Shown here piece after piece: positions 56,542-62,577 of a DNA stretch of 64,000 bases (within the stretch, counting starts at the first letter, position 1; every line of letters begins with the position of its first letter). The notes beneath the pieces were generated by a model that saw only the letters and a program-made list of their open reading frames with translations, was not told the DNA's origin and searched no databases. A program made the position numbers and the translations under genes. Source of the stretch: Deltaproteobacteria bacterium (GTDB lineage Bacteria > Desulfobacterota > Deferrimicrobia > Deferrimicrobiales > Deferrimicrobiaceae); the NCBI GenBank assembly GCA_016218975.1, contig JACRCO010000053.1, positions 79,523-143,522 on the forward strand. The letters run 5' to 3'.

Positions 56542-58215
56542 TTAACCCGAAGACGGGGAGGCCTCAAGCCGTTGCAGCTCTTCCAGGGCTTCCCTGATAT
56601 CGCCTCTACGGTCTTCGGCGTTCTCGACGAGACCCCGGATCGTTGCGAGCTCGTCCCCCATGAACTCCGTCGATTGGCGGGCGAGGCCGCCGATCGAACG
56701 GTTCACGGCGTCGGACCATTGGGAGGCAAGACGGGATAGGTTCTTTTCCACCTCCCAGACTATCTGCTTCCGGAAGTGGCGGAACGCGAATCCCCGGAAA
56801 ATTCCCATCGGGATCAGGAACCAGAGCAGGTCGATCTGCGTATCGAATGTCTTCCCTACCCGGACGTCGGGGCGCGTCGGTTCCTCGATCTCGGCATGGA
56901 ACTGCGCCCCGGTGAAGGAAATCCCCAGGGCGCGCTCGATCTCCTTCCCCAGCCGGTCCTGGAACGCACGGACCGATCGCTGGAAGCCGGACTGAGCTTC
57001 GACCAGAAACCCCGCGAGGTGCGTTTCACCGTAAAAAGAGACCTCCGCGAGCCGTTCCCCGAGGGATACGAGCAGCCACTCACGGAACGATTTCGTCACC
57101 TTCGCCAGGTTTCCCCTCCACTCCTTTTCCACCTCGTCGAGATCCCGGTTCATCAGGTTCCGGATCTCCGCGTGATACGAATGGAACCGCTCCCCGGCAA
57201 CCGTCCGCACGCGGGATTCAAGGTCGCGGACCTTCAGGCCGATCTCGGCCTTCACGAACCCGAGATCGCCGTCCTCGCGGGACATTGCCTCCCGCAGGTC
57301 CTCCCGCGCCTTCCCCGCGGCTTCCGCGGCATGGTTCGCAAGAAGCAGATATTGCCGGCATCCGCCGATGAGGAACCGGATCTTGTGTACGACGATCTCC
57401 TCGAATGTTTCCTCCCGCCGTTCGACGATCCGGCGGAAGAGGTGGTCCCGGACAGCGCTCCGCAAGTTGTCGAAGCCGGGACGGTTGGAGAACGGCAGGA
57501 TCGCCACGTCCTTTCCCGTGTGCCGGTGGACCTGCCGCTTCGTGAACTCGACGACCGATTCAAGCTGTTCGGCAGAGACAAGATCTGCCTTCGTCAGAAG
57601 GATCGCCGTCTCGGGGGTGTGCCGGAACACTTCCAGCAGAAGATTGAGGTCCTGTTCGGAAAGGGGATGGTTGACGCTCACGGCGACGAGCGCCCCCCCG
57701 ACCCGGGGAAGCCAATCCATGGAGACCTGCGTGTTGTGAGCGAAAATGCTCCCCAGCCCCGGGGTATCCACGAACCTCATCCCGCGAAAACTCACCAACG
57801 CCGGCAGCTCCACGTCCACGATCGATACTTCCTTTTCGTTCCCGGGATTCTTCTGCTCGGTCACGAATTCGGACAGGTCATCGAGAGGGATCTCCTCATC
57901 GCTCCCGTTCTGATGCCGGACGGCGGCGCGCTCCGACGGCCCGTGTCCGATCCGGGTGATCACGGCGGTGGCCGGGAGAACGTTGACGGGCAAAACATTC
58001 CTGCCGATGAGACCGTTGAGGAATGAACTCTTGCCGGCCTTGAACTGGCCGAGAACGGCGACGTCCACAACTCCGTGCTCCCGCAGCACCTCCTCGCCGG
58101 CCCGGAGCTGTGGGAGAAGGGAATCGACGCGAAACTCGCGGCAGATGCGTTCGAGACGGGAGACGACCGCCTGCCGGGAATCGGCGGCGTTCGTTTTCAG
58201 GTTGGAATTGCCCAT
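56542..58215 (-). CDS. Bacterial dynamin-like GTPase
   Basis: 557 residues. GTPase motifs: G1 GQFKAGKSS (56-64), G2-like PATAVITRI (81-89), G3 DTPG (150-153), G4 TKAD (208-211). Long helical stalk regions follow (about 270-440). A hydrophobic patch (DLLWFLIPMGIFRGFAFRHF, about 455-475) fits a membrane-inserting paddle, and a C-terminal helix ends the protein. Such proteins remodel or protect membranes. Only a single copy is present, whereas many species carry tandem pairs. It follows the uspA gene after a 334-base gap. Confidence 0.85.
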   Translation of the reverse strand: MGNSNLKTNAADSRQAVVSRLERICREFRVDSLLPQLRAGEEVLREHGVVDVAVLGQFKAGKSSFLNGLIGRNVLPVNVLPATAVITRIGHGPSERAAVRHQNGSDEEIPLDDLSEFVTEQKNPGNEKEVSIVDVELPALVSFRGMRFVDTPGLGSIFAHNTQVSMDWLPRVGGALVAVSVNHPLSEQDLNLLLEVFRHTPETAILLTKADLVSAEQLESVVEFTKRQVHRHTGKDVAILPFSNRPGFDNLRSAVRDHLFRRIVERREETFEEIVVHKIRFLIGGCRQYLLLANHAAEAAGKAREDLREAMSREDGDLGFVKAEIGLKVRDLESRVRTVAGERFHSYHAEIRNLMNRDLDEVEKEWRGNLAKVTKSFREWLLVSLGERLAEVSFYGETHLAGFLVEAQSGFQRSVRAFQDRLGKEIERALGISFTGAQFHAEIEEPTRPDVRVGKTFDTQIDLLWFLIPMGIFRGFAFRHFRKQIVWEVEKNLSRLASQWSDAVNRSIGGLARQSTEFMGDELATIRGLVENAEDRRGDIREALEELQRLEASPSSG

Positions 58216-58549: not shown

Positions 58550-58972
58550 CTATTTCACGATGATCACCGTGCAAGGAGACAACCTCACGAGGTTCTGGGA
58601 TGTGCTCCCCCAGATCCGGTCGTACAGATGGGAAAGCCCCATGAATCCGATGACCATCAGGTCGAAATTCCCGGATTTCGCGTACTCCAGGATGGCCTGC
58701 ACTTCATGGCCCGAAAGGATTTTTACGGTCAGTGGCACTCCCGCCTTCTCCGCTTCTTCCTGCGCCCGCGCGGTGAGATCGTCGAAGAACGCCTTTGCCT
58801 CGCTGCTCGCCTCCATCACCTCGCCGACGGTGGCCGCGTACACAGGAAGTTTTTCACGGACGGAGATGCAATGGACGACCCCTTTGAATTTGGCTGCCAC
58901 GGACAACCCCGCCGCAAGCGCTTTCCACCCATGCTCGGAACCGTCGTGGGCGACCAGGATTTTCGAATACAT
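58550..58972 (-). CDS. Universal stress protein (UspA family)
   Basis: 140 residues, single Usp domain. Start KILVAHDGSEHGWKALAAGL; the nucleotide-binding C-terminal part is VIGFMGLSHLYDRIWGSTSQNLVRLSPCTVIIV, where the usual GxGxxG...S/T loop is altered to IGFMGLS...GSTS. ATG overlaps the antiporter stop by one base, so the two are coupled under the same riboswitch. Family members act in stress adaptation; the pairing suggests a role in regulating or supporting the transporter. Confidence 0.9.
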   Translation of the reverse strand: MYSKILVAHDGSEHGWKALAAGLSVAAKFKGVVHCISVREKLPVYAATVGEVMEASSEAKAFFDDLTARAQEEAEKAGVPLTVKILSGHEVQAILEYAKSGNFDLMVIGFMGLSHLYDRIWGSTSQNLVRLSPCTVIIVK

Positions 58973-60135
58973 TATCTTTCCTCCCTTTGCGATCCTTCGG
59001 GAATGGCCTCATAGACATATTCCGCTTCCGGCGGTTCCGGTTCGAACCACCGCTGGGCGATGAAAGTCGGCACCACCGCGGTGAGAATGACGGTTGCCAC
59101 CAGCAGGGAAAATTGGGTCCTGTCGATAAAGCCCGCCGACAGGCCGTACATCGAGGAGATCGTGCCGAAGGTGAGCCCCGTGCTCATCAGGAGCGTCGTG
59201 TAGGAGGCATCCTCCGGCGCGTATTTCTTCGCCAGGGGATAGACGCCGGCGATCTTCGCCACCATCTTCACCGCGAACAGACCCCCCAGCAGGCCCATGT
59301 TTGCGGCGAGATCTTGCAGGTTCACGTTCATCCCTCCCTTGATGAAGAAGAAGGGTGTGACCATTGCGAACCCGATGATACGGACCTTGCGCTGCAGGTC
59401 CCGGTTCCCCCGGAAATACCTGGAAAGGGCCAACCCGAAGACGAAGACGGGAAGGACGGCATGGCTCTTGCCCAACTTGGCGATATACATGAATAAGAAC
59501 AACAGGAGGAACAGGAACTTGACCTCCGGTTCTATCACCCGGTTGCCGAAGCGCTTGAACAGGGACGGGATGAATTTGGGTCCAAGCCAAATCAGCCCCG
59601 CAGAGACAAACACGAAGACGATCGTATATACATTCCCCTCGGCGAATACCAGGGAGAGCGCAAGCGCTGTCCCGATATCGGTGACGAAGCAAGCGGCCAT
59701 TATTAGCTTTCCGATCGGCGTTTCGGTCAATCCCGTTTCCACGAGAACCGCGTATATGACGGCAAGCGATGTGGTGGAAAGTGCGCATCCGGCTATGAGC
59801 GATGCATTCCAGGACCAGCCGCCGAGGTAATAGCAGAAAAGGACGGCCAGTGTGAACGGCGCAAAAAAGGAAAGCGATCCGATCCACATGCTCTCCTTGA
59901 ACTTTTCCCGGAATAGATCGGGGTCCACCTCGGCGCCTGCGAGGAACGTCAGCAGGATTCCGGCGAACCCCGCAAGGAAGTCGACCCATTCCGTCGTATG
60001 CAAACCCAGGAAATTCCCCCCGATCACCCCCACCATTATCTCCACGATCGCTACCGATACAGCCGCCTTGATGGAGATGACCGACGCCGCGAAGATCAGC
60101 GCCGCCATCCCCAGTGCTAAAGCCGCTTCTTGCAT
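58972..60135 (-). CDS. CPA2-type cation/proton antiporter (Kef/NapA-like)
   Basis: 387 residues, about 12 membrane helices, without the RCK/TrkA domain of Kef channels. Typical helices are VEIMVGVIGGNFLGL and LAGFAGILLTFLAGAEVD. The ion-site helix reads CFVTDIGTALAL with Thr152-Asp153, where CPA2 proteins normally carry Asp-Asp or Asn-Asp. It should exchange Na+/K+ (or another ion) for H+. GGGAGG precedes ATG 60135. The 5' leader holds a fluoride-type riboswitch, so it is probably induced by fluoride. Confidence 0.88.
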   Translation of the reverse strand: MQEAALALGMAALIFAASVISIKAAVSVAIVEIMVGVIGGNFLGLHTTEWVDFLAGFAGILLTFLAGAEVDPDLFREKFKESMWIGSLSFFAPFTLAVLFCYYLGGWSWNASLIAGCALSTTSLAVIYAVLVETGLTETPIGKLIMAACFVTDIGTALALSLVFAEGNVYTIVFVFVSAGLIWLGPKFIPSLFKRFGNRVIEPEVKFLFLLLFLFMYIAKLGKSHAVLPVFVFGLALSRYFRGNRDLQRKVRIIGFAMVTPFFFIKGGMNVNLQDLAANMGLLGGLFAVKMVAKIAGVYPLAKKYAPEDASYTTLLMSTGLTFGTISSMYGLSAGFIDRTQFSLLVATVILTAVVPTFIAQRWFEPEPPEAEYVYEAIPEGSQREER

Positions 60136-60185
60136 CTTTTTTCCTCCCTAAGCCCGCATTTCTCACCATGGTCGCCGCCCGAAAC

Positions 60186-60222
60186 AAAAAAACTCCTGCG
60201 ACGTTTCGTCATCGCAGGAGTT
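60186..60222 (-). terminator. Regulated terminator of the riboswitch
   Basis: Eleven-base perfect arms (60212-60222 and 60191-60201) around a ten-base loop, then T7 (60192-60186) on the minus strand. It ends 50 bases before the antiporter start and shares its first arm with the aptamer pseudoknot, which is how an on-switch works. Confidence 0.9.
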
Positions 60223-60267
60223 ATTAGCCGTCCGATCGACAGGCGGTTTCAGGCGAACTCCATCGCC
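60186..60267 (-). promoter_or_regulatory. Fluoride (crcB-motif) riboswitch
   Basis: Read on the minus strand from 60267: GGCGATGGAGTTCGCC, then TGAAACCGCC, a short helix loop, GGCTAATAACTCCTGC. This is the crcB-motif layout: P1 hairpin, conserved loop, P3 stem and the pseudoknot in which GGAGTT (60261-60256) pairs with AACTCC (60222-60217). The same AACTCC also forms the left arm of the following terminator, so fluoride binding would block termination. A weak promoter (TTGAAA at 60306-60311, spacing 17) lies upstream. Confidence 0.88.
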
Positions 60268-60388
60268 ACAAACTTCACGGCACTTTAACACGGCCACGCC
60301 GGGATTTTCAACTGCGCTCCAACTGCGCTTCACGTTGCCGGAAAGACTCCGGGACTATATTATCGGGAAGGTGGTTGGGGAGGTGGAT

Positions 60389-60676
60389 GTGGACATCGAC
60401 GATGTAAGGAAACGGATCGACCTGCTGGACGACGTTCTTCTGCGGATCTTCAACGAGCGCGCGCGGCTGGCGCTGGAAATAGGCCACATCAAGAAGGGGT
60501 TGGGGATTCCCGTTTACGACCCTGCCCGGGAGAAGCGCATCTTCGCACGGATGAAGGGTGACAATCCGGGGCCGTTGGATGACGGCGCCATCGTCCGGCT
60601 GTTCGAGAGGGTCGTCGACGAATCGCGCCGCCTGGAGCGTATCATGTCGCAACGGGAAGGAAGTGACGAATGCTGA
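60389..60676 (+). CDS. Stand-alone chorismate mutase (AroQ type)
   Basis: 95 residues from GTG 60389 (GGGAGG at good spacing; an in-frame ATG lies at 60335 but without such a site). The all-helical AroQ fold: VRKRIDLLDDVLLRIFNERARLALEIGHIKKGLG, then YDPAREKRIF and FERVVDESRRLE. It converts chorismate to prephenate for Phe/Tyr. It lacks the usual fusion to prephenate dehydratase. The following gene overlaps it by seven bases. Confidence 0.88.
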   Translation: MDIDDVRKRIDLLDDVLLRIFNERARLALEIGHIKKGLGIPVYDPAREKRIFARMKGDNPGPLDDGAIVRLFERVVDESRRLERIMSQREGSDEC

Positions 60677-60890: not shown

Positions 60891-61409
60891 CTAACCGGCG
60901 ATCCCCTTCGCCGCTTTGAGCACCTCGTCGTAATCGGGTTCAGCCGTGAGCTCCTTCACACGCTGTATATAGCGAACGGTGTCTTTCTCGTCGATGACGA
61001 ACAGGGAGCGGGCCAAAAGTTTGGTTTCCTTGACAAGCACGCCGTAGTTTTCCGAGAAGGAACGGTCCTGGTAATCGGAAAGCGTTTTAACCTTCTCGAT
61101 GCCGTTGGCCGCGCACCAGCGCTTTTGCGCGAAGGGCAGGTCCATGCTGACGGTCAAAATCACCACGTTTCCGGGAAGATTCGCCGCTTCCTGGTTGAAT
61201 TTGCGGGTCTCGGTGTCGCAAGTCGCGGTGTCAAGCGAACCGACGGCGCTCACGATCTTGATCTTCCCCTTGAAATCTCCAAGGGTCACGGGTGCGAGCG
61301 CGTTGTCCACCACGCGGAAGTCCGGGGCCTTGTCCCCCACCTTGATCTCCGGCCCGAGCAGTGTCACCGGATTCCCCTTTAAGGTCACAAGCCCTTTCCT
61401 CTCCTGCAT
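60891..61409 (-). CDS. tpx: Thiol peroxidase
   Basis: 172 residues, full length. Peroxidatic Cys64 in SLDTATCDTETRKFNQ and resolving Cys99 in AQKRWCAANGIEKVKTLSDY; start VTLKGNPVTLLGPEIKVGDKAP is Tpx-specific. It removes hydrogen and alkyl peroxides using thioredoxin (one is encoded at 19275). A single gene convergent with the aromatic gene pair; GGAGGAAGCC precedes the ATG. Confidence 0.95.
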   Translation of the reverse strand: MQERKGLVTLKGNPVTLLGPEIKVGDKAPDFRVVDNALAPVTLGDFKGKIKIVSAVGSLDTATCDTETRKFNQEAANLPGNVVILTVSMDLPFAQKRWCAANGIEKVKTLSDYQDRSFSENYGVLVKETKLLARSLFVIDEKDTVRYIQRVKELTAEPDYDEVLKAAKGIAG

Positions 61410-61526
61410 GGCTTCCTCCTCGCCTGATAATGGCCCCCATTCGGGAAATGCGGGCGTCGGATTCACCTACGAGATGCCCCGCGCGCCGGGATGGTTTCGA
61501 CCCAATCGGATGGGATCCTCCCTCGC

Positions 61527-62432
61527 TTATCTGCGGGGTCTACGTCGCCGGTGCAGTTCCAAAAGCATGTTTTTGAACGCGGCGGCCTGCGGAGACAACT
61601 CCCGGCGCAAGCGGCTGACGATGTGGAAGGAACGCGAGAGATCGAGCCCCTTGACGGAAAGGGCAAACAGTTCACCCGATTCGATTTCTCCGCGGATCGC
61701 AGTCTCCGATATGAAAGAAACCCCGATGCCGTTAACTACCGCCCGCTTGACGGCTTCGTTGCTGCCCAGGCATATACGGACGTTCAATGGCTCGGCCCCG
61801 GCGCGGATCAAAGCGTCCTGGACGGTTTTCTGCGTTCCGGAACCCGGCTCCCGCGCCACATAAGGTAATTTCGCCAATTCGTCCATCGTTATGGGTTTCC
61901 CTCTTGCACTTCCGTACTCCCCTCCCGCCGCCAGCATGAGAACTTCACGCCCGAGAGGAGTGAAAAGGAGATCCTTGTCCGCGTATCGGGTTCCCACGAT
62001 CCCGATCTCCACACGTTCCTGCTTTATCCGTTCCACCGTTTCCCTGCTGTCGCCCTGTATGACGGTTATCGAGACCCGCGGATATCGAGCCAGGAACGAA
62101 GGGATCGCTTCGGGGATCACGTAATTTCCCGGGATGTTGCTTGCGCCGATCGTCAAAACGGCGTCTTCGAGCCCCGCGAGGCGCTTCATCGCCCGGGGAA
62201 TCTCCCTTGTCTCCGCAACGATCTTCCTTGCATGCCTCAAGAGGATCTTCCCGCTTTCCGTGGGGAGGATCCCCCTGGGAGTGCGGTCGAGGAGTTTCGA
62301 CCCCAGCAGTTCCTCGAGCGAGGCGATGTGCTGGCTGACGGTGGACTGGGTCACGTGGACGGCGCGTGCCGCCTTCGAGAAACTCCCGCAGTCGACTACC
62401 GCGAGAAAGACCTCGAGCCGCTTGAGGTTCAT
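61527..62432 (-). CDS. LysR-family transcriptional regulator
   Basis: 301 residues. N-terminal helix-turn-helix MNLKRLEVFLAVVDCGSFSKAARAVHVTQSTVSQHIASLEELLG, then a periplasmic-binding-protein-like effector domain (about 90-295: LTIGASNIPGNYVIPEAIP, GIVGTRYADKDLLFTPL). The set resembles CysB/CbbR-type LTTRs. It is divergent from the TusA-DsrE cluster and most likely controls it from the 145-base gap. GGGGGAGG precedes the ATG. Confidence 0.93.
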   Translation of the reverse strand: MNLKRLEVFLAVVDCGSFSKAARAVHVTQSTVSQHIASLEELLGSKLLDRTPRGILPTESGKILLRHARKIVAETREIPRAMKRLAGLEDAVLTIGASNIPGNYVIPEAIPSFLARYPRVSITVIQGDSRETVERIKQERVEIGIVGTRYADKDLLFTPLGREVLMLAAGGEYGSARGKPITMDELAKLPYVAREPGSGTQKTVQDALIRAGAEPLNVRICLGSNEAVKRAVVNGIGVSFISETAIRGEIESGELFALSVKGLDLSRSFHIVSRLRRELSPQAAAFKNMLLELHRRRRPRR

Positions 62433-62577
62433 TCCTCCCCCATCGTTTTTACCGATAGATCCTATCGCAATTATGATTTTTATCAATTTGATTTCACCGG
62501 GTCGATCGGGAATACTTTGATACGGAGTTTCCGGCAGGGCGGATATAGGGCGCATCGAAACGGGGAGGCATACGGCC
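62433..62577. promoter_or_regulatory. Divergent control region with palindromes (62453-62467)
   Basis: A 145-base AT-rich gap between lysR and tusA-like genes. Perfect palindrome CGATAG-ATC-CTATCG at 62453-62467 and an imperfect one around TTATGATTTTTATCAA (62471-62486). Such T-N11-A-like dyads are normal LysR binding sites. Confidence 0.5.

Follow-up and report, generated by a model that had tools for sequence, protein, structure and literature searches.

Two exporters, Fluc/CrcB and CLC-F, are described as the basis of resistance to fluoride. According to a review on the subject, the genes most commonly linked to fluoride riboswitches after these exporters, i.e. the second class, are Na+/H+ antiporters (PMC11139923, citing Baker et al. 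2012), whose presence was explained by a helper role in pH homeostasis (PMC11139923). In Enterobacter cloacae FRM, uspA is part of a fluoride-induced operon, for which induction was shown (PMC5533749). In view of these two descriptions, the main association put forward in an initial annotation of the locus described here, namely a fluoride riboswitch in control of an antiporter and a UspA protein, was already known; the annotation regarded such sets as rarer, whereas the antiporter link is the second commonest class (PMC11139923).

The locus lies in a stretch of 64,000 nucleotides (contig JACRCO010000053.1, positions 79,523 to 143,522; hereafter the window) of a Deltaproteobacteria bacterium of the Deferrimicrobiaceae, and its elements follow each other in one direction: aptamer and terminator, antiporter, UspA and a dynamin-like GTPase. 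As in the known riboswitch-linked systems, the antiporter stands directly behind the aptamer (PMC11139923), with the difference that it belongs to a defined subfamily that is mostly carried without a classical exporter. The operon of E. cloacae FRM (ppaC, uspA, eno, gpmA and crcB; PMC5533749) also combines a fluoride riboswitch with uspA, whereas here crcB, enolase and pyrophosphatase are absent and the antiporter and the GTPase are found instead. Judged from its sequence, the locus is a genuine operon under a fluoride riboswitch and of a type already known, with the substantial twist that the classical exporters appear to be replaced and that a dynamin-like partner is present.

The Rfam fluoride riboswitch model (RF01734), whose use had been proposed in the initial annotation, matched positions 60276-60208 (minus strand) from end to end (model positions 1-64 of 64) with 49.7 bits, above the gathering cut-off of 34, a score below which that annotation had named as a refutation (E-values of 6.8e-12 with 5 kb searched and of 9.5e-13 with the whole genome searched), and the crcB-motif strings quoted in that annotation, GGCGATGGAGTTCGCC, AAACCGCC and GGCTAATAACTCC, are all present in the leader. 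P1 is formed by GGCG (60267-60264) and CGCC (60255-60252), and the pseudoknot by GGAGTT (60261-60256) and AACTCC (60222-60217). Across the aptamers of the antiporter family and of neighbouring operons, the pseudoknot pairs in 25/25 cases, with two-sided changes at two pairs. An intrinsic terminator occupies 60222-60191 (minus strand), with a T run behind its stem and, when folded in isolation, an energy of -21.8 kcal/mol (z -8.1). Since its 5' arm opens with the pseudoknot strand AACTCC, the expression platform is predicted to be mutually exclusive with the aptamer; the sharing of this strand had been proposed before, for a stem of 11 bp, and we observed the sharing and a stem of 13 bp. The model score, the pairing with its two-sided changes and the overlap with the terminator together indicate a genuine RNA of the classical terminating ON type, in which fluoride would bind and allow read-through. 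Terminating ON switches such as that of Bacillus cereus crcB are alike in aptamer order, in the pseudoknot and in a terminator that competes for the pseudoknot strand, the difference being that an antiporter operon, and not crcB, is controlled here. A sigma-70-like promoter is predicted at 60311-60282 (minus strand; TTGAAA at 60311-60306, an 18-nt spacer, TAAAGT at 60287-60282 and an extended TG), with 9/12 consensus positions and a predicted start near 60275, at the 5' end of the aptamer.

The antiporter gene (58972-60135, minus strand), preceded by a GGGAGG ribosome-binding site at 60143-60148, encodes a CPA2-type cation/proton antiporter of 387 aa (PF00999, 143 bits against a cut-off of 26.2). 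Its predicted model (pLDDT 83.9) resembles NapA (4bwz, 5bz2) and KefC (8bxg) in fold, with TM-scores, normalised by query length, of 0.76 to 5bz2 and 0.73 to 8bxg, at sequence identities of 18-24%. A viral fold library gave no match. The residues Asp153 and Lys294 align with the core aspartate and lysine of NapA. The D-D pair of NapA, in contrast, corresponds to Thr152-Asp153, and to N-D in 26/62 homologues. Asp153 is kept in 59/62 homologues, and Lys290 and Lys294 in 62/62; the three exceptions at the aspartate carry asparagine (L043, L094 and L099), two of them (L094 and L099) being among the few antiporters without a riboswitch. We noticed a conserved signature, composed of LTFLAGxE, T/N-D, the two invariant lysines and TGLTFGT, which differs from that of the other two PF00999 proteins of the genome, one NapA-like (D-D) and one KefB-like (Q-D). 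The best NCBIfam match is a CPA2 subfamily with weak KefB/KefC similarity (TIGR00932), and the score of 99.2 bits stays below the cut-off of 238.3, so that by this curated rule the protein is related to CPA2 and not a member, while its wider PF00999 membership stands. Transport of Na+ or K+ against H+ is what fold and motif would predict.

The UspA-type universal stress protein (58550-58972, minus strand; 140 aa; PF00582, 97.5 bits against a cut-off of 24) is encoded by a gene overlapping that of the antiporter by one base (TAATG), which suggests translational coupling of the two. UspA follows the antiporter in 27 of the 61 rows compared, clustered on the antiporter tree. Control of antiporter and UspA by the riboswitch, as originally proposed, is supported by the model score, by the overlap of pseudoknot and terminator and by the conserved arrangement. 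Divergent from the riboswitch is a chorismate mutase gene (60335-60676, plus strand), a gene listed in the literature as common near fluoride exporters. We considered it as a member of the operon set and rejected it: in the genus relative another gene occupies this place, on the riboswitch strand, and we therefore treat the neighbourhood as chance. Adjoining the fluoride operon, at 60891-62555 (minus strand), a redoxin-family peroxidase lies beside a LysR-type regulator, possibly an unrelated oxidative-stress pair.

The third gene of the operon, overlooked in the initial annotation, encodes a dynamin-like GTPase of 557 aa (56542-58215, minus strand; PF00350, 74.5 bits against a cut-off of 27), with G1 (GQFKAGKS), G3 (DTPG) and G4 (TKAD) motifs. 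The closest solved structures are the bacterial dynamin-like proteins 5owv and 2j68 and IniA (6j72), and PADLOC gave a weak match to LeoA; the predicted model, with a pLDDT of 58.8 from four sequences only, is too poor for a fold comparison of the helical trunk and paddle. The Campylobacter-type DLP pair (5owv), the Nostoc-type BDLP (2j68) and IniA share the Pfam family and the three motifs with the protein described here, which differs from them in being tied to fluoride riboswitches. We found no such link in the papers searched, a set outside which the primary list of riboswitch-linked genes (Baker et al. 2012) lies and in which no paper pairs 'fluoride riboswitch' with 'dynamin'. Homologues (E < 1e-15) are present in 53 genomes of the phylum, 51 of which contain a riboswitch (p 4e-22, uncorrected for relatedness), and 43/55 genes of the family start no more than 700 nt downstream of a same-strand aptamer. 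This tie of a dynamin-like GTPase family to fluoride aptamers is a new, computational observation. The arrangements include an aptamer with the GTPase alone, aptamer-GTPase-antiporter-UspA (L098 and L103), aptamer-antiporter-UspA-aptamer-GTPase (L096) and two divergent aptamers, one serving the GTPase and the other the antiporter (L100).

In the window, the GTPase gene starts 334 nt behind UspA, a gap that could hide a separate transcript start. The gap also speaks for the explanation that the gene lies downstream by chance, outside the fluoride response. Against this explanation, which we regard as very unlikely, stand the position of most homologues shortly behind a same-strand aptamer and the riboswitches of nearly all carrier genomes, as well as the gap itself, which measures just 50 nt in the genus relative and in which, in the window, neither a terminator nor a promoter is predicted on the operon strand. 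Another related genome (L045) likewise has the order antiporter-UspA-GTPase. The GTPase is very likely part of the fluoride set and likely belongs to the same transcript as the antiporter and UspA, as far as the sequence can tell. Fluoride-linked dynamin-like proteins of ~550-640 aa occur in dozens of genomes (56542-58215, minus strand, in the window; L098, L100, L103, L136-L138 and L145), and one genome (G278; L145 and L146) has eleven fluoride riboswitch matches, many of them on one contig beside genes for CrcB, dynamin-like, UspA, MFS and antiporter proteins.

We were able to identify the antiporter (E < 1e-60) in 43 of the 297 genomes of our phylum sample, and RF01734 matches occur anywhere in the genome in 40/43 of these carriers vs 77/254 of the others (p 2e-15). 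In the context-map count, 38 of the 44 antiporter genes of the phylum are riboswitch-linked, 33 directly behind the aptamer and 5 in the same operon, and in a wide scan of genomes of all phyla an aptamer stands just upstream at 20/21 antiporter loci, the exception (L056) being a partial match. This nearly constant link of the antiporter subfamily to the riboswitch is a new, computational observation. Its hosts belong to Bacillota, Actinomycetota, Planctomycetota, Elusimicrobiota, Hydrogenedentes, Ignavibacteriota, Bacteroidota, Myxococcota and others, and the antiporters of one bacterial family (f1) fall in separate branches of the tree, which suggests repeated transfer of the gene. Among the cultured carriers is Thermosyntropha lipolytica, which has the antiporter-UspA pair and, in addition, CrcB. 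Two loci (L092 and L097) show an operon of aptamer, CrcB, a second gene, antiporter, UspA and a third, transporter-sized gene, the second gene encoding a DUF190+CBS protein and the transporter-sized gene an MFS protein in L092; in both loci a divergent aptamer fronts a dynamin-like gene. At another locus (L091), a gene ahead of the antiporter and flanked by two fluoride aptamers, one on either side, encodes a HEAT-repeat protein of 153 aa (L091:8431-8889).

Neither classical exporter was found in the 2.95-Mb, 97.6%-complete genome, whose sole RF01734 match is that of the window, serving only the antiporter operon; the initial annotation had asked for the rest of the genome to be checked for crcB, CLC-F and their leaders. 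For CrcB (PF02537) the best score in the whole genome was 15.4 bits against a cut-off of 32.9, and this candidate (L002) was rejected, as it is interrupted by a stop and overlies a reading frame that resembles an ABC permease. For CLC-F no match was obtained in the whole genome at 1e-15. The only CLC protein of the genome (L003) was likewise rejected as a candidate, being closest to the chloride transporter ClcA (1kpl, E 3e-31, vs 5e-11 for the CLC-F 6d0j); it has GTGIP, GRFAP and GGIVGP, and all three CLC-F signatures (GNNLI/GMGLI, GREGT/V and GEVTP; PMC11139923) are absent.

The carriers of the antiporter are depleted of both exporters. CrcB or CLC-F is present in 8/43 antiporter carriers of the phylum vs 126/254 non-carriers (p 1e-4), counts in which related genomes are not independent and drafts can miss short genes such as crcB; the depletion persists among riboswitch-bearing genomes (8/40 carriers vs 36/77 non-carriers, p 0.005) and when one genome per family is sampled (median p 0.018). 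In the 21 genomes of the wide scan, CrcB was found in 1 and a CLC-F-grade match in none, the two CLC matches (74 and 47 bits) being at the level of ordinary CLC proteins. When both sets are pooled, with one genome dropped as a duplicate (L036, of G288), 54/63 carriers are without both exporters and 9/63 have CrcB or CLC-F. That antiporter carriers rarely have either exporter is also a new, computational observation. Nevertheless, neither CrcB nor CLC-F is present in 41/77 riboswitch-bearing non-carriers, so exporter absence is not specific to the antiporter, and, given the 8/43 phylum carriers with CrcB or CLC-F, the antiporter can be an addition. In at least 10 of these 41 genomes, the aptamer is followed by another kind of PF00999 antiporter. 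A second family (AP2; ~490 aa, D-D with Arg in most members) follows aptamers in about a dozen phylum genomes (L145:9216-10697; L188, L189, L200, L201, L204, L206, L208, L212, L213, L217 and L220); since it was found in genomes chosen for lacking the other exporters, their absence alongside it carries no weight as evidence. The earlier suggestion that, with no classical exporter in view, the fluoride response may consist in the antiporter-UspA pair itself gains from the whole-genome absence and from the depletion in carriers, and is incomplete in that the GTPase is very likely a further member.

Several roles can be considered for the antiporter. It could itself export fluoride, by F-/H+ exchange or F- efflux, as a third class beside Fluc/CrcB and CLC-F, which would agree with its near-obligate riboswitch link, with the lack of both known exporters in most carrier genomes and with a signature unlike that of the D-D and Q-D paralogues. 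The fold and the closest relatives are, however, those of cation/proton antiporters, the catalytic Asp153 is kept in nearly all homologues and no anion-selectivity signature can be named; we know of no member of the CPA family that moves halides, and we consider this role improbable. It is also unlikely, in our estimate, that the protein acts in a KefC-like manner, in which fluoride induces cation efflux and proton entry, reducing the pH gradient that traps fluoride, which leaves as HF. The weak KefB/KefC similarity of the best NCBIfam match points in this direction, as does the single-aspartate T/N-D, closer to the Q-D of the KefB-like paralogue than to the D-D of NapA; such a route would account for the absence of an exporter, and fluoride-adapted yeast is reported to tolerate a lower internal pH (PMC11139923). 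Unlike KefC, though, the antiporter lacks the regulatory nucleotide-binding domain, its direction and ion are not fixed by the sequence, and deliberate acidification would be risky while enolase is inhibited.

Antiporter and UspA could, on the other hand, be accessories, the main work being done by an unrecognised exporter elsewhere in the genome. The operons shared with CrcB in some relatives (L092 and L097) and the description of antiporters as pH-homeostasis helpers (PMC11139923) are consistent with such a role, to which we likewise give little weight, as the single fluoride riboswitch of the genome serves the antiporter operon only and the depletion of CrcB and CLC-F in carriers runs counter to the expectation for a pure helper, which would be the reverse.

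We favour, with a probability of about three in four, a fluoride-induced resistance operon of antiporter, UspA and possibly GTPase that stands in for a classical exporter. In such an operon, Mg-bound fluoride would stabilise the pseudoknot, which would keep the terminator from forming and allow transcription of the genes, as expected from the known riboswitch class. The antiporter, which the genome comparison suggests may be the lineage's main defence against fluoride in place of CrcB/Fluc or CLC-F, would exchange a monovalent cation for protons, as its fold and motif indicate, and this exchange may counter either the damage that HF entry causes to pH and proton-motive force or the trapping of fluoride. 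UspA would have the part of a general stress protein, and the dynamin-like GTPase would serve to maintain the membrane. The wider proposal that the subfamily forms an unrecognised third class of exporters for fluoride, or a route independent of exporters that expels fluoride by collapse of the pH gradient, and that it replaces Fluc and CLC-F in at least nine phyla together with a dedicated fluoride-induced dynamin-like membrane GTPase, is a tentative one, which we hold to be rather doubtful.

The link between riboswitch and antiporter being known, the new parts are the exporter-replacement pattern and the link to the GTPase (in a comparison that does not extend to the primary list of Baker et al. 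2012). A widespread antiporter subfamily stands in an approximately one-to-one relation to the fluoride riboswitch, mostly where both exporters are absent, and this pattern makes the question of how riboswitch-bearing bacteria without exporters survive fluoride directly testable. The dynamin-like GTPases behind fluoride riboswitches, in turn, point to membrane remodelling in the fluoride response.
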